The notes under the pieces: model-generated | Told to the model about the DNA's origin: nothing | The model's input: only the letters and a program-made list of their open reading frames with translations | Database searches by the model: none | Shown here: piece by piece, positions 18,884 to 63,939 of the stretch | How positions within the stretch are numbered: position 1 is the first letter of the stretch | How the letters are laid out: each line of letters starts with the position of its first letter | Position numbers and translations under genes: made by a program | Assembly (NCBI RefSeq): GCF_014202975.1 | Contig: NZ_JACHHZ010000004.1 | Coordinates: 496,001-560,000, forward strand | Length of the DNA: 64,000 nucleotides | Source of the DNA: Povalibacter uvarum | GTDB lineage: Bacteria; Pseudomonadota; Gammaproteobacteria; Steroidobacterales; Steroidobacteraceae | Reading direction: 5' to 3'

Positions 18884-18956
18884 GAGCCATGAGCCACGAG
18901 CCATGAGCCAGAGGGGATTTTCCTCCCTCTGGCTCGTTGCTCAGAGCTCACCGCTC
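18884..18956. repeat. Heptad-word inverted repeat, locus A
   Basis: Left arm: four 7-nt words, GAGCCAT, GAGCCAC, GAGCCAT, GAGCCAG (18884–18911). Right arm, read in reverse complement: GAGCGGT, GAGCTCT, GAGCAAC, GAGCCAG (18956 back to 18929). The inner 11 nt pair perfectly (GAGCCAGAGGG with CCCTCTGGCTC) around a 9-nt loop. The remainder pairs only through the shared GAGC of each word. It sits between the 5' end of the B12 riboswitch and the 3' end of the next receptor gene. It may end transcription of that receptor or isolate the two units. Confidence 0.85.
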
Positions 18957-18965
18957 ATCGCTTCT

Positions 18966-21551
18966 TCAGAAGTCCACCATCAACCGCCCGTACACGAACC
19001 GTCCTGCCCGCCCGAACGGGCCGTAGTTCGAGTAGGGCAGATTGCCGGTGCTGTTCAGGGCGATGGGGACCGGATCGGGATACTCGTCGAACACGTTCTC
19101 AGCGCCGATGGCCAGGCGGATGTTGTCCGTGAACGAGAACCTGCCTTCGAGATCCACGATGGTTTCGGCGGCGAGCCACTGATCGATCGGCACGTACGTA
19201 CCGGCGTTGACGTTGGCGAATGTCGCGTTCGTTCCGGAGTCCGGCACGAACACCTTGCCGTAACGGATGGCGCGTACAGTCGCGCCCCAGCGCTGCAGGT
19301 CCCAGTTCACGTTGAACGTGTACTTGTCCTCGGGATTGCCCTTTTCCATCGTCAGTACGTTGAAGCGATCGAACAGCGGTGGTGCCGGCGTGATCGGCGC
19401 ATCGATCTCCGGAATCCTTGTCACGTCCGTGGAGTTGTAGTTCGCCGTCAGCGTGAGATCGAACCGGCCCGCGCCATCTGTCTGCAGCGGGTAGTGCGCC
19501 ACGATATCGACGCCGCTGGTTTCGGTGTCGACGCCGTTGATGAAGAAGCGTCCGCCGCCGCTGCCGATGAAGCCCTGCGTCTCGAGATACGAACGGACGT
19601 TCGCCTGCGTGAGGTTCTCGGAAAGCACGATGCGATCGTCAATGTTGATCCAGTACGCATCGACGGTGAGGCTGAGCTCGCCGAATCGCATCACGGCACC
19701 GACCGAGTAGTTCAGCGATTCTTCGGCATCGAGCGGCTTCGCACCGAGTGCGACCGCGATGGGGTCCGATACCGGGAACGTCGTCACGTCGAACGGCACG
19801 CCGCCGATGAAGTTCGTCGACGTCGTCGCGAAGAACTGCTGCTGCAGCGAAGGTGCGCGGAAGCCGTTCTGGATCGATGCACGCAATGCGAATGCATCGG
19901 TGAAGTCATAGCGCAACGCGAACTTGCCCGAGAAGTTCTCGCCGAAGTCCGAGTAGTCCTCACCGCGCACCGCGACCGACGCGAGCAGCTTCTCCGTCAG
20001 GTTCGCTTCGAGATCGATGTAGACGCCGACGGCCGTGCGATCTTCATCGACTTCGTTTTCCGGCCGGAATCCCGGGAAAACCTGTGAACCCGATGCAGTG
20101 GCGCAGCCACCCGCTGCAATCTGTGCCGCCGTCGGAGTCGCGCAACCGGTGCCGGGAACCGACAGCGGCAGCAGCACGCCGCCGTTGCGATACGAGTCCG
20201 GTTCGCCCGCGGTGATGGAATAGCCTTCCTCGCGCGCCTCGAGTCCAATGGCCAGGTTGAGGGGCGAGGCAAGGCCGACGTCGATACCGCGCACGCCGGA
20301 GAAGTTGAACACGATCTGGTCATAGTCGAAGCCGCCGGCATCGAACACTGTCGGGCTCGCTGTTCCGAGTGAGCGGTTCAACGTGTTCTTGATCGTGAAA
20401 TCCATTTCGTTCTTGCCGTAGACGAGCGAGCTGTCCATGTCCCAGTCGCCCCAGCCCCACTTCACACCCGCGGCGGCCGAGTAGTCGGTGACCTCGGGTG
20501 CGATGATGGGCAGGAAGCCGTCGGCGTAGATCTGGATGACATTGCGATCATCGAGTGCGCGGCGGAAGAAGCCAGCGGACTCCACATCGCGTTCCTGATA
20601 GCTCGCCCAGCCGTAGAGCTGCACGCCGCCGGAGAGGTCATAGCCGGTGTTCAGGAAGATCGTCTTCTGCTCCATGTCGGGCTCGCCCGACCAGGCATTG
20701 AAGCGTTCGATCGTCTGTTCGCGAGCATCGTACGTGCCGCCGACGAGCGGATACTGTTGCCGGAAGTCGAGGCCGTCGCGTTCCGTGCGCTGCTGATCTT
20801 TGTACTCGGCAGCGATCGTGAGGAAGCCGTCCTGACCGAGCGACAGTCCCTTCCACGCAGAGACCACCAGCGTCTCGCCGTCGGAGACATCGCGATCGAC
20901 ATCCGGCGAGGGAACCGTCCACGTAGCGTTCGCGGGCGGTTGTGTCGTGGGCGTCTTGTAGCTCGACTCACGCCAACCGTAGCTGCCGGAAGCGCCGCCG
21001 CCATCGCTGTTGTCCCGCAGCTGCAGGTTGATCACGCCGGCGATTGCGTCCGACCCGTACTGCGCCGATGCGCCGTCGCGCAGCACTTCGATCGATTTCA
21101 CCATGGCGCTCGGGATGGTGTTCATGTCGACGGCGGACGAGCCGCGACCGATCGTGCCGTTGACGTTGACCAGCGATGCGGAGTGGCGGCGTTTGCTGTT
21201 TACGAGTACCAGCGTCTGATCGGGCGCAAGGCCACGCAACGTCGCCGGCCGGATCGTGTCGGTGCCGTCGGCGAGACCCGGGCGCGGGAAATTGAAAGAG
21301 GGGAGCACGGTCGACAGAGCCTGGTTCACTTCCGTGGTGCCGGAGTTCGCGAGCGTCTCGGCCGAGATCACGTCCACGGGCACAGCGGTATCGAGCGCCG
21401 AGCGGTTCTCCACCCGGGTGCCGGTGACGACGATCTGTTCGAGGACGTTCTTTTCTTCGGAAGGCACCGTCTGGGCGTGTGCCGAGTAGCTGGCCAGCAG
21501 CGTGAGCGACGCAGCGGACAACAGCCGTGAGGCGGATCGGTCGGGTTGCAT
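18966..21551 (-). CDS. TonB-dependent receptor, substrate unknown
   Basis: 861 residues from ATG 21551, which has AGGGAGA 7 nt upstream; an upstream in-frame start would add 39 residues ahead of a clear signal peptide. Signal peptide about 1–27 (ending SAHAQ), TonB-box-like LEQIVVTGTRVENRS at about 37–51, and plug motifs TLRGLAPDQTLVLVNSKRRH and DAIAGVINLQLRDNSDG. The C-terminus YGRLMVDF has the terminal phenylalanine needed for barrel assembly. The plug with VNSKRRHSASLVNVNG and a long barrel resembles the iron-complex and uncharacterised receptor group common in Xanthomonadales and Sphingomonadales. There is no adjacent periplasmic binding protein or enzyme to suggest the ligand. Confidence 0.88.
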   Translation of the reverse strand: MQPDRSASRLLSAASLTLLASYSAHAQTVPSEEKNVLEQIVVTGTRVENRSALDTAVPVDVISAETLANSGTTEVNQALSTVLPSFNFPRPGLADGTDTIRPATLRGLAPDQTLVLVNSKRRHSASLVNVNGTIGRGSSAVDMNTIPSAMVKSIEVLRDGASAQYGSDAIAGVINLQLRDNSDGGGASGSYGWRESSYKTPTTQPPANATWTVPSPDVDRDVSDGETLVVSAWKGLSLGQDGFLTIAAEYKDQQRTERDGLDFRQQYPLVGGTYDAREQTIERFNAWSGEPDMEQKTIFLNTGYDLSGGVQLYGWASYQERDVESAGFFRRALDDRNVIQIYADGFLPIIAPEVTDYSAAAGVKWGWGDWDMDSSLVYGKNEMDFTIKNTLNRSLGTASPTVFDAGGFDYDQIVFNFSGVRGIDVGLASPLNLAIGLEAREEGYSITAGEPDSYRNGGVLLPLSVPGTGCATPTAAQIAAGGCATASGSQVFPGFRPENEVDEDRTAVGVYIDLEANLTEKLLASVAVRGEDYSDFGENFSGKFALRYDFTDAFALRASIQNGFRAPSLQQQFFATTSTNFIGGVPFDVTTFPVSDPIAVALGAKPLDAEESLNYSVGAVMRFGELSLTVDAYWINIDDRIVLSENLTQANVRSYLETQGFIGSGGGRFFINGVDTETSGVDIVAHYPLQTDGAGRFDLTLTANYNSTDVTRIPEIDAPITPAPPLFDRFNVLTMEKGNPEDKYTFNVNWDLQRWGATVRAIRYGKVFVPDSGTNATFANVNAGTYVPIDQWLAAETIVDLEGRFSFTDNIRLAIGAENVFDEYPDPVPIALNSTGNLPYSNYGPFGRAGRFVYGRLMVDF

Positions 21552-21873
21552 GCATGTCTCCCTGTGGTTCGAAAAGGCCACCTGCCCCGGGGCGGCAGGC
21601 CGATCGGAAATCGACGGACCAGGGAGCGAACCCGCTTGCGGCCGGGCGAATCTGCAGCCTCGGCGCAACGCTCGACGACACGCCTCCCCTGCCGGTCGTG
21701 GCGGGACTGTGGCGGATCTGACCCGGGGGCGCTATCACGATTAGCCGAAACTGGACGATCAATCGAAGCGGCCCCGCCGGCTGCGATCGGCCCGCCCGTG
21801 GCGTGCGCCCCACAGCGAACATTCCCCCAGCCGGTCCTGTACGATTGCGCGGCCGACACCGATCACGGATCCC
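21552..21873. other. Divergent intergenic region, no gene seen
   Basis: 322 nt separating a minus-strand receptor gene from a plus-strand phosphatase gene, so it should carry both promoters. A GC-rich hairpin (CCTGCC...GGGGCAGG type, around 21580–21600) lies in the receptor leader. I looked for riboswitch boxes and clear -35/-10 pairs and found none that I can defend. Confidence 0.5.
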
Positions 21874-22641
21874 ATGACTACGCATTCGCCGTTCCTTGTT
21901 ACCGCTCTCGATGCCGCCCGGGCCGCCGCCGATGTCATTCGTCGCTATTACCAGCGCAATCTCGAGGTCGTGATCAAGGCGGACAAATCGCCGGTGACGC
22001 AGGCCGACATCGATACCGAAAAAGCGATTCGCGCCATCATCGGCGCACGCTTCCCGGAGCATGGGTTCTACGGCGAGGAAACCGGGCAGAGTGCGCTGGA
22101 CGCCGACTATCTCTGGCTCGTCGACCCGATCGACGGGACCAAGGCCTTCGTTCGCGAGTACCCGTTTTTCTCGACGCAGATCGCGTTGATGCATCGGGGC
22201 GAGCTCATCGTCGGTGTTTCATCGGCACCGATTTATGGCGAGCTCGCGTATGCGCAGGCCGGCGTGGGGGCGTGGCTGAACGACAAGCCGATTCGCGTCA
22301 GCGACATCGACAGCATCGAGGCCGCGGCGATTTCAGCGGGCAATCTCAAGACGCTCGCGAAGAGCACCGGCTGGGCCCGCTACGGCCAACTCGTCGCACG
22401 AGTGAGCCGGATCCGGGGCTACGGCGACTTCCTGCACTATCACCTGCTGGCCGCGGGGAAGCTCGAAGCCGTGATCGAATCCGACGTGAACATTCTCGAC
22501 ATCGCCGCGCTCGCCGTGATCGTGGAAGCGGCGGGTGGAAAATTCACTGACCTGAACGGCAAGCCGCTGGGACTCGAAACGACGTCCGTGCTGGCGGCCA
22601 ACTCGCGCATGCATTCGACCTTGCTGAGGGAGCTCTCTTAG
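21874..22641 (+). CDS. Inositol monophosphatase family phosphatase (HisN/CysQ-like)
   Basis: 255 residues with the three metal-binding signatures of the Li+-sensitive phosphatase superfamily: YGEETGQ at about 67–73, WLVDPIDGTKAF at about 85–96, and ILDIAALAVIVEAAGG at about 206–221, where the more usual WD is replaced by LD. The family hydrolyses phosphate monoesters using Mg2+. The spacing and the VEAAGGKFTDLNG end resemble histidinol-phosphatase HisN and inositol monophosphatases more than CysQ, but I cannot decide between these. It is a lone gene at the head of a plus-strand group. The 75-nt gap before the next gene shows no terminator. Confidence 0.82.
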   Translation: MTTHSPFLVTALDAARAAADVIRRYYQRNLEVVIKADKSPVTQADIDTEKAIRAIIGARFPEHGFYGEETGQSALDADYLWLVDPIDGTKAFVREYPFFSTQIALMHRGELIVGVSSAPIYGELAYAQAGVGAWLNDKPIRVSDIDSIEAAAISAGNLKTLAKSTGWARYGQLVARVSRIRGYGDFLHYHLLAAGKLEAVIESDVNILDIAALAVIVEAAGGKFTDLNGKPLGLETTSVLAANSRMHSTLLRELS

Positions 22642-22716
22642 CGCTCGAGAGAACCGACACTCGTTACGCGTTGGGGGCGCGGACGTGGACAGACCCAAGA
22701 AGAACACGGAGTCCCT

Positions 22717-24117: not shown

Positions 24118-24199
24118 CGAGCGCGGTGGCCAGCAGGTGCAACCTCAAGGGTTGCCGCAGCATCCCAACGATGCCTCATCGTCGAGTACGGAGAACGTC

Positions 24200-24403
24200 A
24201 TGAATTTCCTGCTTCTGGCCTTGGTCTGGTGCCTGCTCTTCGCGGTGGCATGGCCGATTGCGCTGGTCGTTCTATTGCTGATGCCGCTGCTGTGGCTGCT
24301 GTCGATTCCGTTCCGGATCGTCGGCGTGTTGCTGGAAGCGGCGATCGCATTCCTGCGCGCGTTGCTGTTTCTGCCGGCGCGACTGCTGGGGCACCGGGGA
24401 TGA
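24200..24403 (+). CDS. Small integral membrane protein
   Basis: 67 residues, ATG at 24200 preceded by GGAGAACGTC, a good ribosome site. Nearly the whole sequence is hydrophobic: MNFLLLALVWCLLFAVAWP, then LLLMPLLWLLSIPFRIVGV, then a third segment to LLFLPARLLGH. This gives two or three membrane passes with a short basic tail. I do not recognise a named family; similar short leucine-rich proteins are common in Proteobacteria. It is 82 nt downstream of the Nramp-related gene. Confidence 0.6.
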   Translation: MNFLLLALVWCLLFAVAWPIALVVLLLMPLLWLLSIPFRIVGVLLEAAIAFLRALLFLPARLLGHRG

Positions 24404-24407
24404 GAAG

Positions 24408-24527
24408 TTTCACACGCAGTTCACGCAGCGCACGGAGATAGAAAGCTGTGGGTCCGGCTCCAGCCACAAAGCCCGGCAGCTTTTCATTCTCTGGAACCTC
24501 CGTGTCCTCCGTGAGCTCCATGTGAAA
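24408..24527. repeat. Nonamer-word inverted repeat, locus K
   Basis: Left arm (24408–24437) contains CACACGCAG, TTCACGCAG, CGCACGGAG. Right arm in reverse complement (24527–24498) contains CACATGGAG, CTCACGGAG, GACACGGAG. Both arms start with TTTCACA/TTTCACAT. A second inner pairing, GAAAGCTG with CAGCTTTTC, closes the loop. The word period is 9 rather than 7. It lies between two convergent genes and may help end both transcripts. CACGGAG-type words of this kind occur in intergenic repeats of many bacteria. Confidence 0.75.
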
Positions 24528-24541
24528 TCCCTTCTCCGGAC

Positions 24542-26061: not shown

Positions 26062-26091
26062 TGGATTGCGATGAGGATCGCTATGGTGCTT

Positions 26092-29582: not shown

Positions 29583-29653
29583 GTCATTCCCGCGCACGCG
29601 GGAATCCATCTTGTTTTTCAGCCCCGGATGGACACCCGCCTTCGCGGGTGTGA
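29583..29653. repeat. REP-type palindrome pair between rsmI and rnpB
   Basis: ATTCCCGCG-CA-CGCGGGAAT (29586–29605) and ACACCCGC-CTTC-GCGGGTGT (29632–29651) are two adjacent perfect palindromes separated by about 26 nt. The first, with its flanks (GTCATTCCC...GAATCCATC), is repeated exactly at 49890–49917. This is the common proteobacterial REP/BIME pattern; it probably also serves as the rsmI transcript end. Confidence 0.8.
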
Positions 29654-29676
29654 CGGACGCGCCGTCCTTTTCTTTC

Positions 29677-29716
29677 CGAACCAACCGCCAACCGCCAACC
29701 GCTAACCGCTTCTTCC
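29677..29716. repeat. Heptad-word repeat, locus H, upstream of rnpB
   Basis: Words CCAACCG, CCAACCG, CCAACCG, CTAACCG (29681–29708), then CTTCTTCC. In reverse complement it reads GAAGAAG-CGGTTAG-CGGTTGG-CGGTTGG-CGGTTGG-TTCGGAA. The same word and the same TTCGGAA flank recur between pilB and pilC with fewer words. The array covers the place where the -35 of the rnpB promoter should be. Confidence 0.8.
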
Positions 29717-29733: not shown

Positions 29734-30098
29734 GGAGTCGGCCAGACAACCGCTGTCCGCAAGGATGGAGGAAAGTCCGGGCTCCCAGGGCAAGGCGCCA
29801 GGTAACGCCTGGGGGACGTGAGTCCACGGAAAGTGCAACAGAAAGCAAACCGCCGAACTCCCGCAAGGGGGTGGTAAGGGTGAAATGGTGCGGTAAGAGC
29901 GCACCGCGCCGGTGGCAACACTCGGTGGCACGGCAAACCCCGCCTGGAGCAAGACCAAATAGGGAAGCACGCTGGCCAAGCAATTGGCCGGCACGTATGG
30001 CCCATACAGGCTTCCGGGTAGGTCGCTCGAGGTGCGCGGCGACGCGCACCCCAGATGAATGGTTGTCCTCGACAAAACCCGGCTTATCGGCCGACTCC
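29734..30098 (+). ncRNA. rnpB: RNase P RNA, bacterial type A
   Basis: Catalytic RNA of RNase P, which trims tRNA 5' leaders. Universal elements are present: the 5' helix P1 (GGAGTCGG at 29734–29741 pairing with CCGACTCC at 30091–30098), the CR-I region AAGGATGGAGGAAAGTCCGG, GGTAAGGGTGAAATGGTGCG with GTAAGAGCGCACC, GGCAAACCCC, and the CR-V block AGATGAATGGTTGTC near 30052–30066. Length of about 365 nt is typical. A T-run (CCTTTTTCT) follows the P1 3' strand directly and may be the terminator. Confidence 0.97.
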
Positions 30099-30117
30099 TT
30101 TTTCTACCTGCCTGGCG

Positions 30118-44094: not shown

Positions 44095-44101
44095 ATAGGG
44101 C

Positions 44102-44257
44102 GCGAGGCTTGAGGCTCGAGGCACGAGCCAGAGAGGCGACTGGTTACTTCTGGCTTACACGCCGGTCGCCCAGCGCGTGGGCGCTCATGGCTCGCAGCCA
44201 CGCAAGCCAGATTGCACCTCCCTCCTTCTGGCTCGCGCCTCGAGTCTCAAGCCTCGC
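44102..44257. repeat. Heptad-word inverted repeat, locus B, inside the dcw cluster
   Basis: Left arm 44102–44129: GCGAGGC, TTGAGGC, TCGAGGC, ACGAGCC. Right arm (44257 back to 44230, reverse complement): GCGAGGC, TTGAGAC, TCGAGGC, GCGAGCC. The arms match at 26 of 28 positions and both continue as AGAG/AGAAG plus a G-rich tail. A second, inner inverted pair, CTGGCTT (44150–44156) with AAGCCAG (44204–44210), is nested in the about 100-nt centre. As RNA this would be a very long hairpin between murB and ddl. Confidence 0.9.
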
Positions 44258-44287
44258 GTCTCTGAATCTCCGTCCAGGAGCAGAGCA

Positions 44288-48659: not shown

Positions 48660-48668
48660 GAAGAAGGG

Positions 48669-48893
48669 GATGGCGGATAGCGGATGGCGGATAGCCAGAC
48701 GCAACCCGCGCCCTTTCGATATCTGATCCGGGTGTGTCCCCGCCCGGAAGCGGTAACGACCGCGCTCGCGCCCCCGACAGGTCAGAGGCTTGTCGGGGCT
48801 GCGGGCCGGTGCTACGGTGCCGCCGGCTTCGTGGACATGGCTCTATTCCAGGGTTTCCTGATCCGCCCCATCCGCCATCCGCTATCCGCCATC
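48669..48893. repeat. Heptad-word inverted repeat, locus F, between ftsZ and lpxC
   Basis: Left arm: GATGGCG, GATAGCG, GATGGCG, GATAGCC, then AGAC (48669–48700). Right arm (48893 back to 48866, reverse complement): GATGGCG, GATAGCG, GATGGCG, GATGGGG. Twenty-four consecutive bases are identical between the arms (GATGGCG... to GAT). The 165-nt centre holds a perfect 8-bp inverted repeat (CCCCGACA at 48772 and TGTCGGGG at 48791) and a possible promoter. The right arm ends 11 nt before the lpxC ATG. Confidence 0.9.
48790..48818 (+). promoter_or_regulatory. Possible lpxC promoter
   Basis: TTGTCG (48790–48795) and TACGGT (48813–48818) with a 17-nt spacer, inside locus F. The match to sigma-70 is moderate. 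If used, the lpxC leader would still include the right repeat arm. Confidence 0.4.
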
Positions 48894-48904
48894 TACTTCC
48901 TCAG

Positions 48905-49819
48905 ATGCATCAAAGAACCCTCAAGAACTCCATTCGCGCCACGGGCGTCGGCCTTCATTCGGGCAAGAAAGTCCTGATGGTCGTGAAGCCTGCGCCGGTG
49001 GATACGGGTGTGGTCTTTCGGCGGACGGATCTCGAGCCGATCGTCGATGTGCCGGCCTATGCCGAGAACGTCGGCGAGACGACGCTGGGCACGACTCTTA
49101 TAAGAGGCCATTCGCGGGTCTCCACGATCGAACACCTGATGTCCGCCTTCGCGGGGCTCGGCATCGACAATGCGTATATCGAACTGTCGGCCGAAGAAGT
49201 GCCGATCATGGACGGCAGCGCGGGACCCTTCGTATTCCTGCTGCAATCCGCGGGCCTGGAAGAACAGGACGCGCCGAAGCGCTTTGCGCGGATCCTGCAG
49301 CCCATCCAGGTGGAAGAGGGCGACAAGTGGGCCCGCTTCACGCCTTACAACGGTTTCAAGGTCAACTTCGAGATCGAGTTCAATCACCCGATCTTCAAGA
49401 AGCGCGACCAGACGGCCACCATGGATTTCTCCAGCACGTCCTTCCTGCGGGAGATCAGCCGGGCCCGTACTTTCGGATTCATGCGCGATCTCGAGTACAT
49501 GCGCTCACGCAACCTGGCGCTCGGCGGCACGATGGAAAACGCGATCGTGCTCGACGACACGCGGATCCTGAACGAGGAAGGGCTGCGCTACGAAGATGAG
49601 TTCGTGAAGCACAAGATCCTCGACGCGATCGGCGATCTGTACCTGCTGGGCCGCAGCATCCTGGGCGAGTTCAGCGGCTTCAAGTCGGGCCATGCCCTGA
49701 ACAACCGGCTGCTGCGAAAACTGATCGCGACACCGGAAGCCTGGGAAGAGGCGACGTTCGAGACGGGGCCGGGACCGATTTCGTACGTGCCGACGGCGTC
49801 GGCGGCCGTCGGGGCATGA
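48905..49819 (+). CDS. lpxC: UDP-3-O-acyl-N-acetylglucosamine deacetylase LpxC
   Basis: 304 residues. Starts [20 protein letters not shown], the family N-terminus. Zinc ligands H77 ([12 protein letters not shown]), H236 and D240 ([15 protein letters not shown]), and the catalytic H263 ([12 protein letters not shown]) are all present. Commits UDP-GlcNAc to lipid A synthesis. There is no Shine-Dalgarno sequence: the 12 nt before the ATG are the edge of a repeat arm and a pyrimidine-rich ACTTCCTCAG, which is odd for an essential and usually tightly regulated gene. Confidence 0.97.
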
Positions 49820-49826
49820 CATATAA

Positions 49827-49886
49827 GAAGCCGGTCAGCGGGATGAGCTGGTAGCCGGCTAGCCAGAAGCCGAAAAGAACCTCCCA
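49827..49886. repeat. Heptad-word half element, locus C, after lpxC
   Basis: GTAGCCG, GCTAGCC, AGAAG (about 49851–49869), preceded by AGAAGCCGGTCAGC and GATGAGCTG. It matches the left arm of locus D (both contain AGAAGCCGG and GGCTAGCCAGAA). No right arm is visible; a REP palindrome follows instead. Confidence 0.65.
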
Positions 49887-49889
49887 GCT

Positions 49890-49917
49890 GTCATTCCCGC
49901 GCACGCGGGAATCCATC
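49890..49917. repeat. REP-type palindrome after lpxC
   Basis: ATTCCCGCG-CA-CGCGGGAAT (49893–49912), with flanks GTC and CCATC identical to the copy at 29583–29610. Sits between convergent lpxC and the DUF721 gene and may end both transcripts. Confidence 0.8.
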
Positions 49918-50056
49918 GGTCCGTAAGTCCGGCTCTGGCCGAACGTTAGGCGAAGTCCCCCGCGGCTTTACCCCAGCTAAAGCCTCACTCATCAATCGAG
50001 CCGTCTGGTGCGTTGATTCGTTAACTTTACCTAACTCATCCCGGAAGCTTTCGCGC

Positions 50057-50420: not shown

Positions 50421-50428
50421 CCCCCTGA

Positions 50429-50523
50429 CTGTAAAGGGCAAACCCGCTGAAAGGCGGGGACGCAAAGCCACCGGTCTAAGGGCTGCGCTGGGAGCGGCCA
50501 CGATAGCGGGGTTGCCAGGATGT
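50429..50523 (+). ncRNA. Cyclic-di-GMP-I (GEMM-I) riboswitch
   Basis: Aptamer blocks in order: AAAGGGCAAACC (50433–50444), a stem capped by a GAAA tetraloop, GGGGACGCAAAGCCACCGG (50456–50474, the invariant GGGACGCAAAGCC), TCTAAGGG, a second stem, and the closing GATAGCGGGGTTGCCAGG (50502–50519). These match the GEMM-I consensus very closely, including the tetraloop. The downstream gene is an M23 peptidase 131 nt away. The 3' stretch has a weak hairpin (TTCCC-CAA-GGGAA near 50554–50567), a direct repeat and a T6 run, which could form the expression platform. Whether the ligand turns the gene on or off cannot be read. Confidence 0.93.
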
Positions 50524-51571: not shown

Positions 51572-51752
51572 CGGAGCGCCCCCAAGGGGCTCCACCCTAG
51601 GCATCGATCCCGCGGCGCCACGCCTTCGTAAGTTACGGAAGATTAAGAATTTCGCGGCACGTCCCGCGTGCTGTCTTTCCCCGCATTCGAACGACGATCC
51701 ACGCGGGAATCTCAGCCGAAAGTCCCTCGTTGACCTTGTTTTCCGGTCCCGC

Positions 51753-51773
51753 GCCTAGAGCCTAGGGCCTAGT
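51753..51773. repeat. Heptad-word run, locus J, upstream of secA
   Basis: GCCTAGA, GCCTAGG, GCCTAGT: three 7-nt words. A single GCCTAGG-type word in inverse (CCTAGGC, around 51596) lies upstream. It ends where the -35 of the secA promoter would be, given a TACAAT at 51791. Confidence 0.65.
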
Positions 51774-51790
51774 GTCGTGCACACGGCGTG

Positions 51791-54572: not shown

Positions 54573-54585
54573 CAAAGAAGAAGGA

Positions 54586-54613
54586 GATGGCGGATAGCGG
54601 ATGGCGGATAGGC
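54586..54613. repeat. Heptad-word run, locus G, between secA and mutT
   Basis: GATGGCG, GATAGCG, GATGGCG, GATAGGC, preceded by GAAGAAGGA. The first 25 nt are identical to the left arm of locus F 6 kb away, including the GAAGAAGG lead. No inverted partner is seen here. Two ATG triplets inside the words (54587 and 54601) lie in different frames. Confidence 0.8.
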
Positions 54614-55089
54614 CGGATCGCACGACCAGGCCGCCACCCCGTTTCACTCGCCTGCTGCGCATGATCGTTCAACGACCGCCTGCTCATGTATTGGCCGGAG
54701 CCATCTTCGATGAGCAGGGCCGTGTGCTCATTGCACAGCGGCCTCCGGGCAAGCATCTGGCGGGCGGCTGGGAATTCCCGGGCGGCAAACTCGAACCGGG
54801 CGAAGAACGTATCGAAGCGTTGCAGCGTGAGCTCGACGAAGAGCTCGGTATTACGGTTCACAGTGCCGAGCCGCTCATCTGCTACGAACATCACTACCCC
54901 GATCGCCGTGTCGTCCTCGATCTGTGGCTCGTGACGAAATACACGGGCACTCCCCAGTCACTCGAAGGTCAGCCGCTGCAATGGGTCGCGGTCAATGACC
55001 TCGAGAAGGCGGGGCTGCTGGATGCGGACAAGCCGATGATTCCGGCGCTGCAACGGGTGGAGGGGTGGGCGCTGGGATGTAAGATGTGA
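54601..55089 (+). CDS. mutT: NUDIX hydrolase MutT (8-oxo-dGTP diphosphatase)
   Basis: Up to 162 residues. The Nudix box GGKLEPGEERIEALQRELDE runs into ELGI, matching GX5EX7REUXEEXGU, with the MutT-like start VLAGAIFDEQGRVLIAQRPP and AGGWEFPGGKLEPGE. Removes oxidised dGTP from the pool. The ATG at 54601 lies inside a repeat word and yields an N-terminus (MADRPDRTTRPPPRF) unlike the family. ATG 54661 (MIVQRPPAHVLAG) fits better but also lacks a clear ribosome site. secA–mutT adjacency is conserved. Confidence 0.9.
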   Translation: MADRPDRTTRPPPRFTRLLRMIVQRPPAHVLAGAIFDEQGRVLIAQRPPGKHLAGGWEFPGGKLEPGEERIEALQRELDEELGITVHSAEPLICYEHHYPDRRVVLDLWLVTKYTGTPQSLEGQPLQWVAVNDLEKAGLLDADKPMIPALQRVEGWALGCKM

Positions 55090-55092
55090 TTG

Positions 55093-55209
55093 AGAAGCCG
55101 GCTAGCCATTAGCCAGCTAGCCAGAACAAGAAAGGCGGAGGCGACACTCTGCGCGTCATCCCCCGCTGGGCTCTGGCTAGTGGCTAGCAGCTAGTGGCTA
55201 GCAGGCTAG
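55093..55209. repeat. Heptad-word inverted repeat, locus D, between mutT and DPP IV gene
   Basis: Left arm: AGCCGGCT, AGCCATT, AGCCAGCT, AGCCAGA (about 55096–55125). Right arm in reverse complement (55209 back to 55170): CTAGCCTG, CTAGCCA, CTAGCTG, CTAGCCA, CTAGCCAGAG. The arms pair through the AGCC/GGCT core. The TAG stop codon of the convergent peptidase gene (55206–55208) lies within the outermost CTAGCC word. Confidence 0.85.
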
Positions 55210-57626: not shown

Positions 57627-59777
57627 ATGAAACGCACGCTCTGTGTGTCCTGGGTTCTGTTGCCGATGCTGACCTCGATGGCGATCGTCGCCGCGCCGAC
57701 GGTTCCGCAGACTACCGACGCCATCGTCGCCTATCCCTCGACGAAGCGCGTCGAGCATGTCGATACGTATCACGGCGTGCGGGTCGATGACTCCTATCGC
57801 TGGCTCGAAGCGATCGGCACACCCGATGTCGCCAAGTGGGTCGAAGCGCAGAACGGCCTCTCACAGCCGATTCTCGAAGCCATTCCGGCGCGCGAGAAGA
57901 TCAAGCAGCGTCTCACGCAGCTGTGGAACTACGAACGCTACGATGTGCCCGTGAAGCGTGGCGGCCGCTACTTCTATCTGCGCAACGACGGTTTGCAGAA
58001 CCAGAGCGTCCTGTACGTCGCGGAGTCGCTCGACGCATCGCCGCGCGTGCTGCTCGATCCCAACAATTTCAGCGGCGATGCGACTGTGGCGCTCGGCGAG
58101 TTCGTTCCGAGCCCCGACGGCAAGCTGCTCGCCTACAGCCTTTCCGATGGCGGCACTGATTGGCGCACCTGGCACGTGCGCGATGTGGCGACCGGCAAGG
58201 ATCTGGCCGATGAGCTGCGCTTCATGAAATTCCGTGAGGTCGCGTGGACGGCCGATTCGAAGGCCATGTACTACGCGCGCTATCCCCTGCGCGCTGACGG
58301 CACGGGCGATGACTCGAAGCAGACGTCGATCTACCTGCATCGCCTCGGAGATCAGCAAAGCGCGGACCGGCACATCTTCAGCGTGACCGACCATGCGACT
58401 CGTGCAACGTATCCGCAGGTCACCGACGGCGGCCGCTACCTCATCATCAATCTCTACGACGGTTCACAGGAAACGGGCATCTACTTCCAGAAGCTCGGTG
58501 CCGACGGTGCGCCCTCGGGCCCGGTGGTCCGCCTGATCGACACGTTCGACGCGAACTACGATGTGATCGCGGAAATCGACGACGTGCTTTACGTCCATAC
58601 GACGCGCGGTGCGCCGAACGCACGCGTGATCGCGGTGCCGGCGGAGACTGGCGGCATGTCCAAAGCGCGCGACGTGATCGCCGAGAAGGACGTGGCGCTG
58701 CTTGATGTCGCGGTCATCGGCAATCGCTTCGTGGGGCAGTACATCAAGGATGCCTACTCGCTGGTGACCGTCAGCGATCTGAAAGGCAAGCAGCTCTACG
58801 ACGTGAAGCTGCCCGGCTACGGCCAGGTCGGCGGCTTCGAGGGTGACGTGAAGGATACCGAGACATTCTTCGTCTACACGGATTTCCTGACACCCGCATC
58901 CATCTCGCGCCTCGATGTCGCATCTGGAAAGACGAGCCTCTTCCGCGCGCCGAAGATCCAGGCGCAGACGGACCGCTATGTGACCGAGCAGGTTTTCTTT
59001 CGCAGCAAGGACGGGACGCGCGTGCCGATGTTCATCACGCATCGTCGCGACCTCGTCAAGGACGGCAAGGCACCGCTGATGCTCTACGGCTACGGCGGCT
59101 TCAACATCGCCCAGCAGCCCGGTTTCAGCGTGCCCGCTCTCGTCTGGCTCGAGATGGGCGGCGTCTACGCGGTAGCGAATCTGCGCGGTGGCTCGGAGTA
59201 CGGTGAAGCATGGCACTCGGCCGGCACGAAGCTGCAGAAGCAGAACGTGTTCGATGATTTCATCGGCGCCGCCGAATGGCTGATCGAGCAGAAGTACACG
59301 TCGACTCCGAAACTCGCGGTCCGCGGCCGCAGCAACGGCGGCTTGCTCGTCGGCGCGGTGATGACCCAGCGTCCCGATCTCTTCGGTGCAGCGCTGCCCG
59401 GCGTCGGCGTGCTCGACATGCTTCGCTATCACACGGCCAGCGCGAACGCGCGTCACTGGTCGACCGATTACGGTCTCAGCGAGAACGCGGACGAGTTCAA
59501 GGCGCAGTACGCGTACTCGCCGGTCCACAACGTGAAGCAGGGCACCTGCTATCCGCCGACGCTGGTGACCACCGCCGATCGCGACGATCGTGTCGTGCCG
59601 TGGCACAGCTACAAGTTCACCGCGGAACTGCAGCGTGCCCAGGGCTGCAAGAACCCGATTCTCCTGCGTGTCGAGACGCGCGCTGGCCATGGCGCAGGCA
59701 AGCCCGTGTGGATGCAGATCGAGGATTGGGCGGATCAGTGGGCGTTCCTGAATACAGCGCTCAAGATGAGCTACTGA
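57627..59777 (+). CDS. Prolyl oligopeptidase, S9A, exported
   Basis: 716 residues from ATG 57627, with CGGAGAAGAGA upstream; the open frame continues upstream but would bury the signal peptide (about 1–23, ending IVAAP). Propeller domain begins YHGVRVDDSYRWLEAIGTPDVAKWVEAQN, the family start. Hydrolase domain: NLRGGSEYGEAWHSAG, nucleophile S569 in GRSNGGLLVGAVM, acid D654 in DDRVVPWHS, and H688 in RAGHGAGKP. Cleaves after proline in short peptides. Divergent from the DPP IV gene with 150 nt between starts; the two exported proline-specific peptidases could share a peptide-scavenging role. Confidence 0.94.
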   Translation: MKRTLCVSWVLLPMLTSMAIVAAPTVPQTTDAIVAYPSTKRVEHVDTYHGVRVDDSYRWLEAIGTPDVAKWVEAQNGLSQPILEAIPAREKIKQRLTQLWNYERYDVPVKRGGRYFYLRNDGLQNQSVLYVAESLDASPRVLLDPNNFSGDATVALGEFVPSPDGKLLAYSLSDGGTDWRTWHVRDVATGKDLADELRFMKFREVAWTADSKAMYYARYPLRADGTGDDSKQTSIYLHRLGDQQSADRHIFSVTDHATRATYPQVTDGGRYLIINLYDGSQETGIYFQKLGADGAPSGPVVRLIDTFDANYDVIAEIDDVLYVHTTRGAPNARVIAVPAETGGMSKARDVIAEKDVALLDVAVIGNRFVGQYIKDAYSLVTVSDLKGKQLYDVKLPGYGQVGGFEGDVKDTETFFVYTDFLTPASISRLDVASGKTSLFRAPKIQAQTDRYVTEQVFFRSKDGTRVPMFITHRRDLVKDGKAPLMLYGYGGFNIAQQPGFSVPALVWLEMGGVYAVANLRGGSEYGEAWHSAGTKLQKQNVFDDFIGAAEWLIEQKYTSTPKLAVRGRSNGGLLVGAVMTQRPDLFGAALPGVGVLDMLRYHTASANARHWSTDYGLSENADEFKAQYAYSPVHNVKQGTCYPPTLVTTADRDDRVVPWHSYKFTAELQRAQGCKNPILLRVETRAGHGAGKPVWMQIEDWADQWAFLNTALKMSY

Positions 59778-59778
59778 A

Positions 59779-59803
59779 GGCTACTGGCCGCTGGCCAGAG
59801 AGG
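59779..59803. repeat. Heptad-word run, locus E1, between POP gene and yacG
   Basis: GGCTACT, GGCCGCT, GGCCAGA, then GAGG. It lies in the gap between two convergent genes. It is nearly the inverse of the right arm of locus E2 beyond yacG, so together they bracket yacG. Confidence 0.75.
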
Positions 59804-59805
59804 AG

Positions 59806-59994
59806 TCAGGGTGGACGGCGGGGCGTCTCAGGCTCCGCGTCGTCATCGACGCTCTCGCCCGGGATTGCGTGCTTCTCCGAAGCCCACGCGCCGAGGTCAA
59901 TGAGCTTGCAGCGCTCGGTGCAGAACGGACGCCATGGATTGATGTCGGACCACTCGACGGGGCGATTGCAGGTGGGGCAAGGAACGGTAGGCAT
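59806..59994 (-). CDS. yacG: DNA gyrase inhibitor YacG (zinc protein)
   Basis: 62 residues. Four-cysteine zinc site: [12 protein letters not shown] (C6, C9) and [15 protein letters not shown] (C25, C29). YacG proteins bind GyrB and inhibit gyrase. The acidic, proline-rich tail is typical. The coaE–zapD–yacG order is conserved in Gammaproteobacteria; here a repeat element separates yacG from zapD by 117 nt. Confidence 0.94.
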
Positions 59995-60001
59995 GGGAAA
60001 A

Positions 60002-60103
60002 GGCTAACTGGCTCGCTGGCCAACTGGCAAACCGGCCAGAATCCAATCTCAGTCGTCGACGCTTTCGCTCTTTGTCTGGCCAGCAGCCAGTAGCCAGCTG
60101 GCC
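60002..60103. repeat. Word-repeat inverted element, locus E2, between yacG and zapD
   Basis: Left arm has an 8-nt period: GGCTAACT, GGCTCGCT, GGCCAACT, GGCAAACC, GGCCAGAA (60002–60041). Right arm in reverse complement is GGCCAGCT, GGCTACT, GGCTGCT, GGCCAGA (60103 back to 60075), mostly 7-nt. Both inner ends are GGCCAGA. The 33-nt centre has no evident signal. Confidence 0.85.
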
Positions 60104-60111
60104 GCGTCTTC

Positions 60112-60900
60112 TCACGTGCACGTCGTCAGCAGAAACTTCACATCGTCGCCGGTTTGAATCGGCCTGGCGTTCACATCCGTCGATGCCATGAAGCGGATGC
60201 TGCAGCGATGGTGGCTGCCGCTGATCTCCGGGAACAGCGTCGTCTCGCCCGGGAGCGTGATGCGGATCAGCTGACACGGATTCTCGCGTTCGAACTGGAG
60301 CTGGAACACGCCGCCGACTGCCGTCTCCGGCCGGGACCGCGCGGCTTCCCGGGTGAGCCATAACAGCTCGGTCACGGCGTCGCAGAGGGGGCGGATCGTC
60401 GCCATCCAGCCGTTGAAGGTCTGCGAGCGGGTGGCGAAGGGCAGGTCGAGCCAGTGCCGGTAGTCCGGCAGATCGAATTCGCACGTGCCGCCGGGAATGG
60501 CGCTGCGATGTTTGATGGCATTGAGGAACTCGGAATCCCTGAGCCGCTGCATGAACATCGCGCCGGCGTTGTTGAGCTCGGTCCGCAGCCGGGCGAGGTT
60601 GGACAGCACGGCCTTCAGCCGGCCTCCGTCCACACCGGGCCGGGCTCCGTACTCGTGCATGACCGCCATCTGGCGTTCGAGCTCTTTCAGGACTTCGCTG
60701 CGGATATCGCCCCGCGCCGTGATCGCAAGGATTTCCAGCAGCGACCCCATCGCGGCCCGCGTCGACCACGAGTCCGAGCGCTCCTCGTGATAGAGCGTCT
60801 GCTGATACAGAAAGTCCAGCCGCAGGAACGTACGCATCCGCTCGTTGAGCGGTTGCTCATAGACGGTCACGCTGGCCTGAGTTGCGTCTGCCGAGGTCAT
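60112..60900 (-). CDS. zapD: Cell division protein ZapD
   Basis: 262 residues from ATG 60900 (a GTG at 60918 would add six). ZapD landmarks are VTVYEQPLNERMRTFLRLD, FLYQQTLYHEER, GVDGGRLKAVLSNLARLRTEL and ATRSQTFNGWMATIRPLCDAV. It bundles FtsZ filaments and supports the Z ring; ftsZ is 12 kb upstream in this window. Between coaE and yacG, the conserved position. Confidence 0.94.
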   Translation of the reverse strand: MTSADATQASVTVYEQPLNERMRTFLRLDFLYQQTLYHEERSDSWSTRAAMGSLLEILAITARGDIRSEVLKELERQMAVMHEYGARPGVDGGRLKAVLSNLARLRTELNNAGAMFMQRLRDSEFLNAIKHRSAIPGGTCEFDLPDYRHWLDLPFATRSQTFNGWMATIRPLCDAVTELLWLTREAARSRPETAVGGVFQLQFERENPCQLIRITLPGETTLFPEISGSHHRCSIRFMASTDVNARPIQTGDDVKFLLTTCT

Positions 60901-60959
60901 CGGTGGATTGTGCTGCACTCATGCGCATGAGGGAAGCGCTGCGGCCCGCGGAAGCTCAC

Positions 60960-61565
60960 TCAGTTGTCCGCAAGGCGCTCGTAGTTGCGGTGCAGAGTCA
61001 GTACAAACTGCTCGAGGTCGGCGAGTGTTCCCGTGTTGACGATGACATCGTCGGCGGCATCGAGTCGATCTTCACGACTCGCCTGAGCGGCGAGGATCTG
61101 CTGTGCCTGCTCGGCGGAGGACCCATCGCGCTCCATGAGCCGCTGGACCTGCTGCTCCTCGGGGCAATCGACCACGAGCACGCGATCGTAGAGGCCCGAA
61201 CGACCGCCTTCGACGAGCAGAGGGATCACGTGGATCTGGTAGAGCCCGCCGGCGGCCTCGGCCCGGCGCGCGAGCTCGGCACGAATCGCGGGGTGAGTGA
61301 TCGCTTCGAGTTGCTGCCTCAGGGAGGGATCGGCGAAAACCTTGTCCCTGAGCCGGCGCCGGTCGAGTCGGCCCGATGCGTCGAGCACATCGCGTCCGAA
61401 CGTCGCGACGATCTCCGCGAATGCCGGCATGCCCGGCTCGACGATGTCGCGTGCGATCTGGTCCGTGTCGAGGACCGGCACGTCGAGATCCGCGAACAGC
61501 TGTGCGACCGCCGATTTTCCGCTGGCGATGCCGCCGGTCAGTGCGATGAGAACGGGCCTGCTCAT
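60960..61565 (-). CDS. coaE: Dephospho-CoA kinase
   Basis: 201 residues. P-loop LTGGIASGKSAVAQLFADL at about 9–27, then VPVLDTDQIARDIVEPG, ITHPAIRAELARR and IPLLVEGGRSGLYDRVLVVDC. Last step of CoA synthesis. 10 nt downstream of pilD and about 60 nt before zapD, so probably cotranscribed with both. Confidence 0.96.
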   Translation of the reverse strand: MSRPVLIALTGGIASGKSAVAQLFADLDVPVLDTDQIARDIVEPGMPAFAEIVATFGRDVLDASGRLDRRRLRDKVFADPSLRQQLEAITHPAIRAELARRAEAAGGLYQIHVIPLLVEGGRSGLYDRVLVVDCPEEQQVQRLMERDGSSAEQAQQILAAQASREDRLDAADDVIVNTGTLADLEQFVLTLHRNYERLADN

Positions 61566-61575
61566 GGCCTGGAGT

Positions 61576-62517
61576 CTACATCCTGGGACCGAACCCGCTC
61601 ATGTGCAGATATGTACCGATGATCTGATCGCCCCACATGAGCGCAATCCAGCCAGCGGCCGCGAGATACGGGCCGAAGGGGATCGGAATGTTCCGGTCTC
61701 GCCCGCGCACCACGATCAGCGCGATGCCGACTGCCGCGCCGGTGAATGCAGACAGCAGGATGATCAGCGGCAGCATCTTCCAGCCGAGCCAGGCGCCGAG
61801 CGCGGCGAACAGCTTGAAGTCGCCGTAGCCCATGCCCTCCTTGCCGGTGAACAGCTTGAAGGCCCAGTAAACGCTCCAGAGGCTGAGATAGCCGGCGACC
61901 GCGCCGATGATGCTCGAGTGCGCATCGACGGGCAGCCCGATCCGGGGATCAGCCGGGGCCAGGCTGATCACGAGCCCGATCCAGACCAGCGGAAGCGTCA
62001 TGTTGTCGGGCAGCAGCTGCGTATCGAAATCGATGACGGTCAGTGCGACCAGGAACCAGGTGAGCAGCAACGCCGCGCCTGCGTACCAGTGAAAGCCGAA
62101 CTTCCAGGCGACAGCGGCAGACAGGACCGCGGTCGCGAGCTCGACCACGGGATAGCGCGGCGAGATCTTCGTGCCGCACTTTGCGCACTTGCCCTTGAGG
62201 AACAGGTAGCTGATGACAGGGATGTTCTGGCTTGCGGTGATCAGCGCGCCGCACTTGGGACAGGCGGAGCGGGGGACGAAGAGGTTGTACTGCGACTGGG
62301 AATTCGGCTGCGCGTCGGGCTTGAGCTGCGGATCCTTGTCGTCCGTGAGGATCTGTCGCGCCTGATCCTTCCACTCGCGGTCGAGCATGATCGGCACGCG
62401 GTGAATGACGACGTTGAGGAAGCTGCCGATCATCAGCCCGAAGACGAACACCAGCCCGATCCAGGTCGCGCTCGACGTGGTCAGGCCATAGATCAGCAGA
62501 TCCAATACGTGCTGCAT
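61576..62517 (-). CDS. pilD: Type IV prepilin peptidase/N-methyltransferase PilD
   Basis: 313 residues, about eight membrane segments. GSFLNVVIHRVPIMLDREW precedes the cytoplasmic zinc loop with two CxxC pairs (SACPKCGALI and KCAKCGTKIS). Catalytic aspartates lie in VIDFDTQLLPDNMTLPL and MGYGDFKLFAALGAWLG. Cleaves and methylates prepilins and pseudopilins. It starts 158 nt after pilC ends, behind a strong terminator, so it should have its own promoter. Confidence 0.96.
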   Translation of the reverse strand: MQHVLDLLIYGLTTSSATWIGLVFVFGLMIGSFLNVVIHRVPIMLDREWKDQARQILTDDKDPQLKPDAQPNSQSQYNLFVPRSACPKCGALITASQNIPVISYLFLKGKCAKCGTKISPRYPVVELATAVLSAAVAWKFGFHWYAGAALLLTWFLVALTVIDFDTQLLPDNMTLPLVWIGLVISLAPADPRIGLPVDAHSSIIGAVAGYLSLWSVYWAFKLFTGKEGMGYGDFKLFAALGAWLGWKMLPLIILLSAFTGAAVGIALIVVRGRDRNIPIPFGPYLAAAGWIALMWGDQIIGTYLHMSGFGPRM

Positions 62518-62615
62518 CGGTAGTGCTCTTGGGGTTTGCGTTGCCGTAAAGGGATTCTAGGAGCAGGCCGGCCGCGTGACGGTCGAATGCAGCACGATTT
62601 GTCGCACCGGAAAGA

Positions 62616-62640
62616 AAACGCCGCGCGGTGCGCGGCGTTT
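62616..62640 (-). terminator. Intrinsic terminator of pilC
   Basis: AAACGCCGCGC-GGT-GCGCGGCGTTT, an 11-bp perfect stem with a 3-nt loop, followed on the minus strand by TTCTTTCC after the stem's own TTTT. It lies 35 nt past the pilC stop. Confidence 0.85.
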
Positions 62641-62674
62641 GTCCCCATGCCTGTTCAGTTGTCTGCGGCGCGAA

Positions 62675-63892
62675 TCACACCACCGCGCCGAGCTTGAAGA
62701 TCGGCAGGTACATCGCGATGACCATGCCGCCGACCAGCACGCCGAGGATCGCCATGATCAGCGGTTCCAGCAAGCTGCTCATCGCGTCGACCGCGGCGTC
62801 CACGTCCGCTTCGTAGAAGTCCGCGACCTTCGATGCCATCTGGTCGAGCGAGCCGGATTCTTCGCCCACGGCGATCATCTGGATGACCATGTTCGGGAAC
62901 AGTCCGGTGCTCTCCATGCAGCGCTGCAAGCGCATGCCAGTCGAGACTTCGTCGCGAATCCGCAGGGTCGCTTCCTCGTAAACGATATTGCCCGTGGCGC
63001 CGGCCACCGAGGTGAGCGCTTCGACGAGAGGAACACCGGCGGCGAACATGGTTGACAGCGTCCGCGAGTAGCGTGCAATACAGGCTTTCACCATGATCGG
63101 GCCAACCACCGGCGCCTTCAGCATCATGCGATCCAATGCGCGTCGCATCGGGCGCGAGCGCTTCTTGAAGTAGAAGAACGCATATCCGGCGCCGCCGGCC
63201 GCAATAGCCATCCACCACCCCTGAGCCTGAATGAACCGGGACATGTCGATGACCATCTGAGTGAACGCCGGCAGGTCGGCACCGAATCCCTTGAAGAGCG
63301 ATTCGAACTGCGGGATCACGAAAATCAGAAGGATGATCGTCACGATCACGGCGACCGCGAGCACCGCGGTCGGATAGAACAATGCCTTCTTGATCTTCTT
63401 CTTCAGCGCTTCGGTCTTTTCCTTGTAGGTGGCAACCTTGTCGAGCAGCGTCTCGAGCGCACCGGCATGCTCGCCGGCTTCGACCAGGTTCACGAAGAGA
63501 TCGTCAAAGTACAACGGATGCTTTGCCAGCGACTCGTGCAGGGTGGTGCCCGCTTCGACGTCCGACTTGATCGCGAGCACCAGCTTCTGCATCGACGGCT
63601 TGTCGTGTCCGTTGCCGATGATGTCGAAGCACTGCACCATGGGAATACCCGCTTGCAGCATGGTCGCGAGCTGGCGCGCGAAGAGCGCGATGTCTTCGGC
63701 GTTGACCTTCTTGCCGCTCTTGAAGAGCTGCACTTCCTTGCGGACCCTCTTCGCGAGGACGCCCTGGCGCCGCAGATCCGCCTTGACCGCGGCCTCCGAC
63801 ACGGCAAGCATCTTGCCCTTGATCTTCTTTCCCTTCTTGTCTGTGCCTTCCCAGACGTAGGGCAACTGCTGCGATGAGGCAACTTGAGCCAT
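62675..63892 (-). CDS. pilC: Type IV pilus inner-membrane platform protein PilC
   Basis: 405 residues. Two T2SSF domains and three membrane segments: VNAEDIALFARQLATMLQAGIPMVQ opens domain one, ALFYPTAVLAVAVIVTIILL is the first membrane pass, and KACIARYSRTLSTMFAAGVPLVEAL opens domain two; the end LVGGMVIAMYLPIFKLGAVV is the last pass. Platform for pilus assembly driven by PilB. The 67-nt gap from pilB contains a heptad repeat. Confidence 0.96.
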   Translation of the reverse strand: MAQVASSQQLPYVWEGTDKKGKKIKGKMLAVSEAAVKADLRRQGVLAKRVRKEVQLFKSGKKVNAEDIALFARQLATMLQAGIPMVQCFDIIGNGHDKPSMQKLVLAIKSDVEAGTTLHESLAKHPLYFDDLFVNLVEAGEHAGALETLLDKVATYKEKTEALKKKIKKALFYPTAVLAVAVIVTIILLIFVIPQFESLFKGFGADLPAFTQMVIDMSRFIQAQGWWMAIAAGGAGYAFFYFKKRSRPMRRALDRMMLKAPVVGPIMVKACIARYSRTLSTMFAAGVPLVEALTSVAGATGNIVYEEATLRIRDEVSTGMRLQRCMESTGLFPNMVIQMIAVGEESGSLDQMASKVADFYEADVDAAVDAMSSLLEPLIMAILGVLVGGMVIAMYLPIFKLGAVV

Positions 63893-63908
63893 GGTGAATA
63901 CCTGGAGT

Positions 63909-63939
63909 GGCGGTTAAGCGGTTAGCGGTTGTTTCGGAA
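63909..63939. repeat. Heptad-word repeat, locus I, between pilB and pilC
   Basis: CGGTTAA, G, CGGTTAG, CGGTTGT, then TTCGGAA. It matches the reverse complement of locus H near rnpB, differing mainly by two fewer CGGTTGG words before the shared TTCGGAA. Confidence 0.75.

Follow-up and report, generated by a model that had tools for sequence, protein, structure and literature searches.

Inward-facing arms of tandem heptanucleotide words at gene borders of Povalibacter uvarum and related genomes

We wanted to establish what kind of element is represented by the short tandem words that lie in the intergenic gaps of a 64,000-nucleotide (nt) stretch of the Povalibacter uvarum genome (G000:C4:496001-560000, i.e. 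positions 496,001 to 560,000 of contig 4; from here on, the window). The genome is 6.32 Mb long in 11 contigs, and C4:x denotes position x on its contig 4. For the LpxC-like protein encoded in the window, the best matches include records from Steroidobacter, which are 80% identical to it. The original prediction held that gaps of the window carry 7-nt words in tandem, several of them as two inverted arms, that the word differs between loci and is shared by both arms of one locus, and that the arms are copied or converted within a locus. We report here that arms of this kind occur genome-wide in one common layout, and we lean, with reservations, towards regarding them as small dispersed insertion elements.

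Layout and vocabulary of the heptad arms

When 40 stretches of 20 kb each (800 kb) were searched for tandem segments by sequence identity at a lag of 7 nt, 47 segments scoring at least 11 were found, compared with 1 in one first-order Markov shuffle. At the same score, lags 4-6, 8, and 10-13 gave 1-5 segments each, lag 9 gave 16, lag 15 gave 6, and lag 14, a harmonic of 7, gave 33. In evenly spaced stretches totaling 1.18 Mb, 79 lag-7 segments scoring at least 10 were detected (67 per Mb), which extrapolates to ~420 per genome, coding segments included. When the sample was 1.98 Mb, 138 such segments were detected, only 8 of them coding, and 128 could be placed in 98 gaps. Around lpxC, segments scoring at least 12 had a density of 56 per Mb in P. 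uvarum, compared with 1.8 in Pseudomonas and 3.4 in 20 other relatives, each relative being represented by one chromosomal region. The heptad arms are thus real and genome-wide, as the original prediction had it for the window, where its loci A, B, C, D, E1, E2, F, and K and further single tracts could all be located by coordinates.

The words were sorted into classes by eye on early arms, and the classes were afterwards applied to further sequence. In the 1.98 Mb, 125 arms could be oriented by their words alone, and in 30 of 30 gaps with two arms the arms pointed inward. The two arms shared one word class in 29 of these gaps (11.3 expected), a concordance that none of 10,000 permutations reached. 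In the stretches unseen when the classes were defined, 17 of 17 two-arm gaps were inward and 17 of 17 were class-concordant. A profile test free of classes, conducted on the first 1.18 Mb, found 19 of 19 same-gap pairs inverted, with a mean profile likeness of 0.87 within gaps and 0.68 between gaps (reached by 0 of 2000 draws). The claim of matched inverted arms therefore extends well beyond the window; several arms are single.

The arms also have a polarity with respect to genes. Of the 125 arms, 95 had their outer end no more than 20 nt away from a gene border and 5 their inner end, and the same was true of single arms (46 and 5 of 65) and of arms in the unseen stretches (46 and 2 of 68). 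Stop codons accounted for the tightest fit, with 56 of 57 outer ends within 20 nt (median 6 nt); at start codons this was so for 39 of 68 (median 14 nt), the start-side distances being weaker because some start codons are misplaced by our home-made hexamer gene caller, which gives a small bonus for Shine-Dalgarno (SD)-like sequence. The outermost 12 nt of the arms are 72% purine, and the loops between arms are 13-177 nt long. At the other end, the GCCAGA on which inner ends had been said to converge generalizes to YCRGA, which 89 of 125 arms carry no farther than 30 nt from their inner end, compared with 12 of 125 control stretches. Frequent layouts are GAAGTA-GATAGCGGATAGCGGAT-GGTGACTAGTCAGAAC for GCGGATR arms and AAGGAGA-AGCGGTT for GCGGTTR arms.

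The vocabulary is one of ~7 word classes dispersed over the genome and not of one word per locus: 109 of the 125 oriented arms belong to just three classes, GCGGTTR, GCGGATR, or GAGCNRY. Hence, the view that each locus has its own word, shared by its arms, survives for the sharing of a class and fails for the uniqueness of the word. In 98 GAGCNRY words, GAGC is near-invariant (96-98 of 98 per position) and is followed by N, R (50 A, 47 G), and Y (50 T, 48 C); in 158 GCGGTTR words, GCGGTT is near-invariant and is followed by A or G (76 and 82). Detection by lag-7 identity favors conserved words but does not affect which positions vary. Class is also linked to gap type, GCGGTTR gaps being codirectional in 30 of 31 cases and GAGCNRY gaps being convergent in 8 of 27, compared with 108 of 894 gaps of at least 60 nt. 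Within a class, sharing a locus did not make arms more alike: for GCGGTTR, the likeness was 0.564 within loci and 0.580 between loci (reached in 16,930 of 20,000 permutations), and the locus signal was reached in 4287 of 20,000 permutations for GCGGATR and in 3249 of 5000 for GAGCNRY. This lack of a locus signal, together with the unrelated loops, argues against the proposed copying or conversion within a locus. One unclassed tract (L102:18534, reverse complement GGGATTC/GGGACTC) fits GGGANTN.

In the window, the arms are placed as follows.

18877-18915, + strand: left arm of locus A, GAGCNRY-class words, end GAGCCAGAGGG
18925-18965, - strand: right arm of locus A, degenerate; at its outer end it adjoins the 18966 end of a - strand gene
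24408-24527, no strand: locus K, 9-nt words (CACGCAG/CACGGAG) arranged as an inverted pair
29674-29712, - strand: single arm of GCGGTTR class; the RNase P RNA gene (29734-30102) lies downstream of it
44100-44136, + strand: left arm of locus B, GAGGCNY; array begins 9 nt past the upstream stop
44224-44264, - strand: right arm of locus B, class as left arm; below the strict threshold, seen by eye
48666-48701, + strand: left arm of locus F, GCGGATR; array 8 nt past the stop of an ftsZ-like gene
48702-48859, no strand: loop of locus F, a spacer with a GTCAGAGGCTTG core
48860-48896, - strand: right arm of locus F; array stops 11 nt short of an lpxC-like ATG at 48905
49845-49869, + strand: single arm of locus C, TAGCC type, end GCTAGCCAGAAG
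51750-51777, no strand: short tract, GCCTAGA three times, outside the word classes
54583-54616, + strand: single left arm, GCGGATR; array 13 nt past a secA-like stop
55100-55127, + strand: left arm of locus D, TAGCC type
55170-55209, - strand: right arm of locus D, overlapping the stop codon of a - strand gene ending at 55206
59779-59803, + strand: single arm E1, TGGCNRC, directly past a stop ending at 59777
60002-60044, + strand: left arm of E2, TGGCNRC
60074-60103, - strand: right arm of E2; the sister genome G002 likewise has TGGCNRC arms here
63904-63942, + strand: single arm, GCGGTTR class, irregular, end TTTCGGAACAG; outer end near the start of a - strand gene at 63892

The original prediction gave its words for loci G to J without places, and our pairing of these letters with four single tracts is a guess. 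The gene upstream of locus B is presumably murB, from its place in the dcw cluster; this and the names ddl, ftsZ, and secA are our assumption from the gene order of that cluster and do not come from family libraries. Searched with Rfam at gathering thresholds, the window gave no match for the heptad loci; its matches were confined to RNase P and two riboswitches, which lie at 50428-50520 (c-di-GMP-I-GGC) and 18584-18848 (cobalamin, - strand).

Junctions with and without arms in related genomes

Genome G011 has 70 matches to the pattern GCGGWTRGCGGWTRGCGG, and Steroidobacter agaridevorans (G001) has none. An inverted pair was seen at each of eight G011 loci with such matches. Six of these were compared in the close relatives G001, G003, and G010, and for four (L257, L258, L259, and L260) one or more of these relatives had an empty or short junction. 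At L259, the gap is 145 nt in G011, is reduced to an overlapping TGATG in G001, where the flanks are 97 and 93% identical, and is 8 nt in G003. At L260, 160 nt in G011 compares with 19-20 nt in the three relatives; in frame, the element begins 9 nt ahead of the relatives' stop, and the array supplies the TAG that ends the reading frame. At L258, the element stands directly past the stop and leaves a conserved downstream spacer outside, the gap being 13 nt in G001 and TGA-GA-ATG (2 nt) in G010. L257 is 115 nt in G011 and 2 nt in G010. By parsimony, which is not proof, these comparisons would favor gain in G011 over loss in the relatives. An ATG may have been duplicated at L259, and ~13-19 nt seem to have been replaced at L258 and L260.

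We next compared the sister genome G002, in which 149 of the 279 genes of a 400-kb stretch were matched (mean identity 78.7%), giving 120 orthologous gaps with G002 borders projected from protein matches. A search with the GCGGWTR pattern had suggested that G002 has no heptad arms; this was wrong, as 362 kb of G002 contain 22 lag-7 segments, or 61 per Mb, and the words it uses are others, mainly AGGCNRC and TGGCNRC. Strict arms were present in 18 gaps of P. uvarum, in 9 of G002, and in 5 of both (Fisher p = 0.004, or 0.015 when limited to gaps of at least 60 nt in both genomes). The five shared gaps are given below, P. uvarum first; in most of them, a single arm in each genome is above the strict threshold, and the other arm and its word were read by eye.

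C4:396172: GAGCNRY and AGGCNRC, 119 and 108 nt
C4:461972: GCGGTTR and AGGCNRC, 172 and 168 nt
Window 44095 (locus B): GAGGCNY and TGGCNRC, 193 and 175 nt
C4:585437: GAGCNRY and TGGCNRC, 165 and 167 nt
Window 59778: TGGCNRC in both genomes

The words thus differ in four of the five gaps, as a joint change of both arms in sister strains would have it, and TGGCNRC is common to both genomes in the fifth. Arms may co-occur through shared descent or because certain gaps are permissive. When all inverted repeats were counted, several of them from other families, 20 and 24 of 70 gaps had them, 12 in both genomes, compared with 6.9 expected (p = 0.005); this is not a count of heptads.

Other repeats accompany the heptads. 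Locus K, predicted as one of their family, does have inverted arms and belongs to a separate family with 9-nt words, CACGGAGNN; its left arm recurs near-identically in G002, at another gap (C4:405801). In G002, there are 55 lag-9 segments scoring at least 10 in 362 kb (coding included), and the 9-nt arms on its contig C20 are often nested with ACACGGGGN arms. G002 also fills many gaps with a CTGTAGGTCAGGCTTCAGCCTGAC and GGCCGGCTTCAGCCGGCCCCACAG repeat, e.g. the orthologues of window 49820-50056 and 55090-55205, and the orthologue of G000:C4:459601-459754 carries, between divergent genes, an irregularly spaced inverted pair of GTGACGA type that is absent in P. uvarum. Repeats of the form ATTCCCGCG..CGCGGGAAT occur at window ~29584-29610 and 49890-49918 and at ~370-460 of L222, where they lie inside the loop of a heptad element. 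Genome G012 has the further words GGGGATAGCGGATAG, GGTCCGC, and CAGTCCGY around ftsA-ftsZ-lpxC (L160, G012:C68, ~1735-4350 and 14797-14900).

Origin of the arms

We give somewhat better than even chances to the reading that the heptad arms are non-autonomous dispersed insertion elements with several vocabularies, designed like the paired GGGAATC repeats of Xanthomonas. The unit would consist of two inward-facing arms, each a few tandem 7-nt words with a near-fixed core of 4-6 letters and 1-3 variable letters, with a purine-rich outer end, often a YCRGA inner end, and a 13-177-nt loop lacking family sequence. Units, each of one word class, would arrive at gene junctions or directly past stop codons, which fits the four G011 loci, so that those surviving would lie right up against stops and starts. 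An array lying over a gene end can supply an in-frame stop (as observed at one locus). The arms would diverge independently after arrival. Each lineage would have its own word set and, if the same permissive gaps receive elements of whichever set is current, both arms would change word together; most copies are probably neutral passengers. We count in favor of insertion elements the inverted and class-concordant pairs, the border polarity, the empty junctions, the lack of a locus signal, the other words of G002 at similar density, and the division of the word into fixed and variable positions.

Several observations weigh against insertion elements. First, 65 of the 125 oriented arms share their gap with no other arm at the threshold used; in 37 single-arm gaps shorter than 500 bp, a weaker inverted partner exceeded 20 shuffles in 13 and a direct partner in 5. 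Second, the loops have no family sequence: among the 21 of 30 long enough for comparison, blastn-short found one 11-nt match (E = 0.004), and loops as shared cargo were rejected. Third, the arms of L255 and L262 bracket, as judged by eye, a conserved promoter-like spacer; relatives share this spacer but lack such arms around it, those of G010 at L262 being of another kind. The arms of window locus F likewise bracket an older promoter-like spacer, its GTCAGAGGCTTG core being present in all seven relatives compared, which lack heptad arms there. The right arm of L255 seems to have been rewritten in place at nearly unchanged length, and G003 has short seeds of both arms at this locus. These loci differ from the four above, so that gain seems to have had two modes, and only that of the four is plain unit insertion. 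Fourth, L257 is 49 nt in G001, the closest relative, and 59 nt in G003, with another hairpin, and no clear target-site duplication was seen at the compared G011 loci. Finally, no transposase was found, RAYT being the only factor searched for. Insertion of a unit still fits best, though it covers neither the promoter-bracketing loci nor the unrelated loops nor the missing enzyme.

The RAYT-like gene suggested as a partner of the arms showed no link to them in 14 genomes, and we rejected RAYT as the mover. Y1_Tnp matches number two in P. uvarum (one over the cut-off), one in G012, five in G002, and none in G011 despite its 70 pattern matches. No arms of known class were found at 8 of the 12 Y1_Tnp places with ~1.5 kb of flanks (one of the two P. 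uvarum places included); beside the P. uvarum copy, there is one lag-7 segment of no known class.

A tentative and less probable reading is that the arms act in RNA, as intercistronic hairpins for mRNA stability, termination, or re-initiation, and match because the stem is selected; for example, an AAGGAG past a stop would be brought next to the following ATG. The fold of whole elements is indeed much stronger than that of shuffles (30 gaps, mean z -8.6), GAGCNRY gaps are enriched for convergent genes, as given above, and the arms match although the words differ between species. Further, SD-like sequence precedes 5 of 37 arm-adjoining starts compared with 319 of 1002 others (p = 0.018), a count weakened, as are the start-side distances, by misplaced starts. 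However, the fold energy results from inverted arms of any cause, the outer ends face stops as well as starts, and many arms are single. Selection on an RNA stem predicts an excess of G.U, and none was seen on the sense strand of 24 codirectional pairs (44 G.U and 60 A.C), so that there is no sign of such selection. Bridging requires a reverse-complement SD ahead of the start, and only 7 of 37 arm-bearing starts have one, compared with 89 of 1002 others. Loops as palindromes were rejected: the mean fold z was -0.8 in 21 loops, of which 5 were below -2, and -0.55 in 60 control stretches from the middle of gaps, of which 9 were below -2.

About as probable as a role in RNA is the idea of propagating DNA defined by its grammar, in which some activity would write or move inward 7-nt arrays at gene junctions with a vocabulary of its own in each lineage, sisters would share architecture and addresses in other words, and some arms would be rewritten around an existing promoter.

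Concerted evolution in place, as in the original prediction, with slippage and hairpin-templated correction homogenizing the arms of a locus, is unlikely. The class common to both arms would follow from it, as would the L255 right arm, which differs at near-constant length around a conserved promoter-like core, with the G003 seeds. There is also a weak excess of identity between neighboring words, in GCGGATR (26 of 46, reached by 0.4% of shuffles) and GCGGTTR (62 of 112, 5.8%). For GAGCNRY, however, the excess is weak or absent (reached by 6.4, 19, and 53% of shuffles), and slippage as the sole source was rejected on these neighbor effects; further, words recur genome-wide without extra same-locus likeness within a class, and variation falls at fixed word positions.

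Binding sites for one or more proteins reading a 7-bp period at gene borders, with an insulator or nucleoid role, are improbable: the near-invariant cores and the ~50:50 use of A/G or C/T at chosen positions agree with such sites, but several unrelated words, and others in the sister, need many factors or recognition of structure alone. Least probable are G-quadruplexes or i-motifs, as for the Xanthomonas repeats, since four GG runs within the spacing rule occur in 80 of 125 arms but four GGG runs in only 4, and GAGCNRY arms keep the architecture with four GG runs in 1 of 32.

Known heptamer systems and what the arms add

REP and REPIN sequences, which are associated with RAYT transposases, are short dispersed intergenic repeats that often form inverted pairs. 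Unlike these, single arms here do not on average fold alone better than chance (mean z -0.54, below -2 in 15 of 125), and they have no fixed tag, GTAG occurring in 17 of 125 arms (13 of them GCGGATR) and CGTC in none. Unlike a usual miniature inverted-repeat transposable element, the arms enclose no shared internal sequence; like one, they have empty sites in relatives at L257 to L260.

The STRR repeats named as the nearest relative give way to two other systems. Rehm et al. (2015; PMC4692102) describe Xanthomonas GGGAATC (GGGANTN) heptamers that are 89-93% intergenic, form 70 and 75 inverted convergent pairs, lie close to stops when on the coding strand and close to starts when on the non-coding strand, and are conserved at positions 1-4 and 6. 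Tandem placement in gaps, inverted convergent pairs, and border polarity are all common to the P. uvarum arms; in contrast, that study concerns one G-rich family studied for G-quadruplexes, and here there are ~7 classes, mostly without GGG runs. The word GGGAATCGGGAATCGGGAAT occurs neither in P. uvarum nor in any of 321 genomes of the class; no Xanthomonas was compared directly. In the Nostoc trnL intron, as Kaasalainen et al. (2015; PMC4476775) describe, the P6b stem always consists of one of two heptad classes, TDNGATT or NNTGAGT, and the class is replaced repeatedly while the structure is kept; that is one cyanobacterial intron locus, whereas the arms here are gene-border elements throughout a genome. 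The Beggiatoaceae TAACTGA repeats are, according to MacGregor (2015; PMC4679880), intergenic tandem heptamers just upstream of starts at which SD sequences are rare, similar to arm-adjoining starts here, but they consist of one word in direct repeats (one indirect repeat is reported), related heptamers being rare. In the open-access papers searched, we found no report of several heptad words with such a layout in one genome and none of a Steroidobacter heptad element, the latter result saying little for Steroidobacter.

As far as these sources go, the heptad systems of Xanthomonas, Nostoc, and Beggiatoaceae are treated as one word or one pair of classes. The same layout written in other words in a sister species suggests small insertion elements defined by layout more than by sequence, and several words in one architecture make the arrangement, and no longer the word, the thing to be asked about. 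Relatives that are close but differ in having the elements, such as G011 and S. agaridevorans, make the origin of these repeats directly testable, as they do the question of how operon junctions gain a spacer of ~110-160 nt without breaking either gene.

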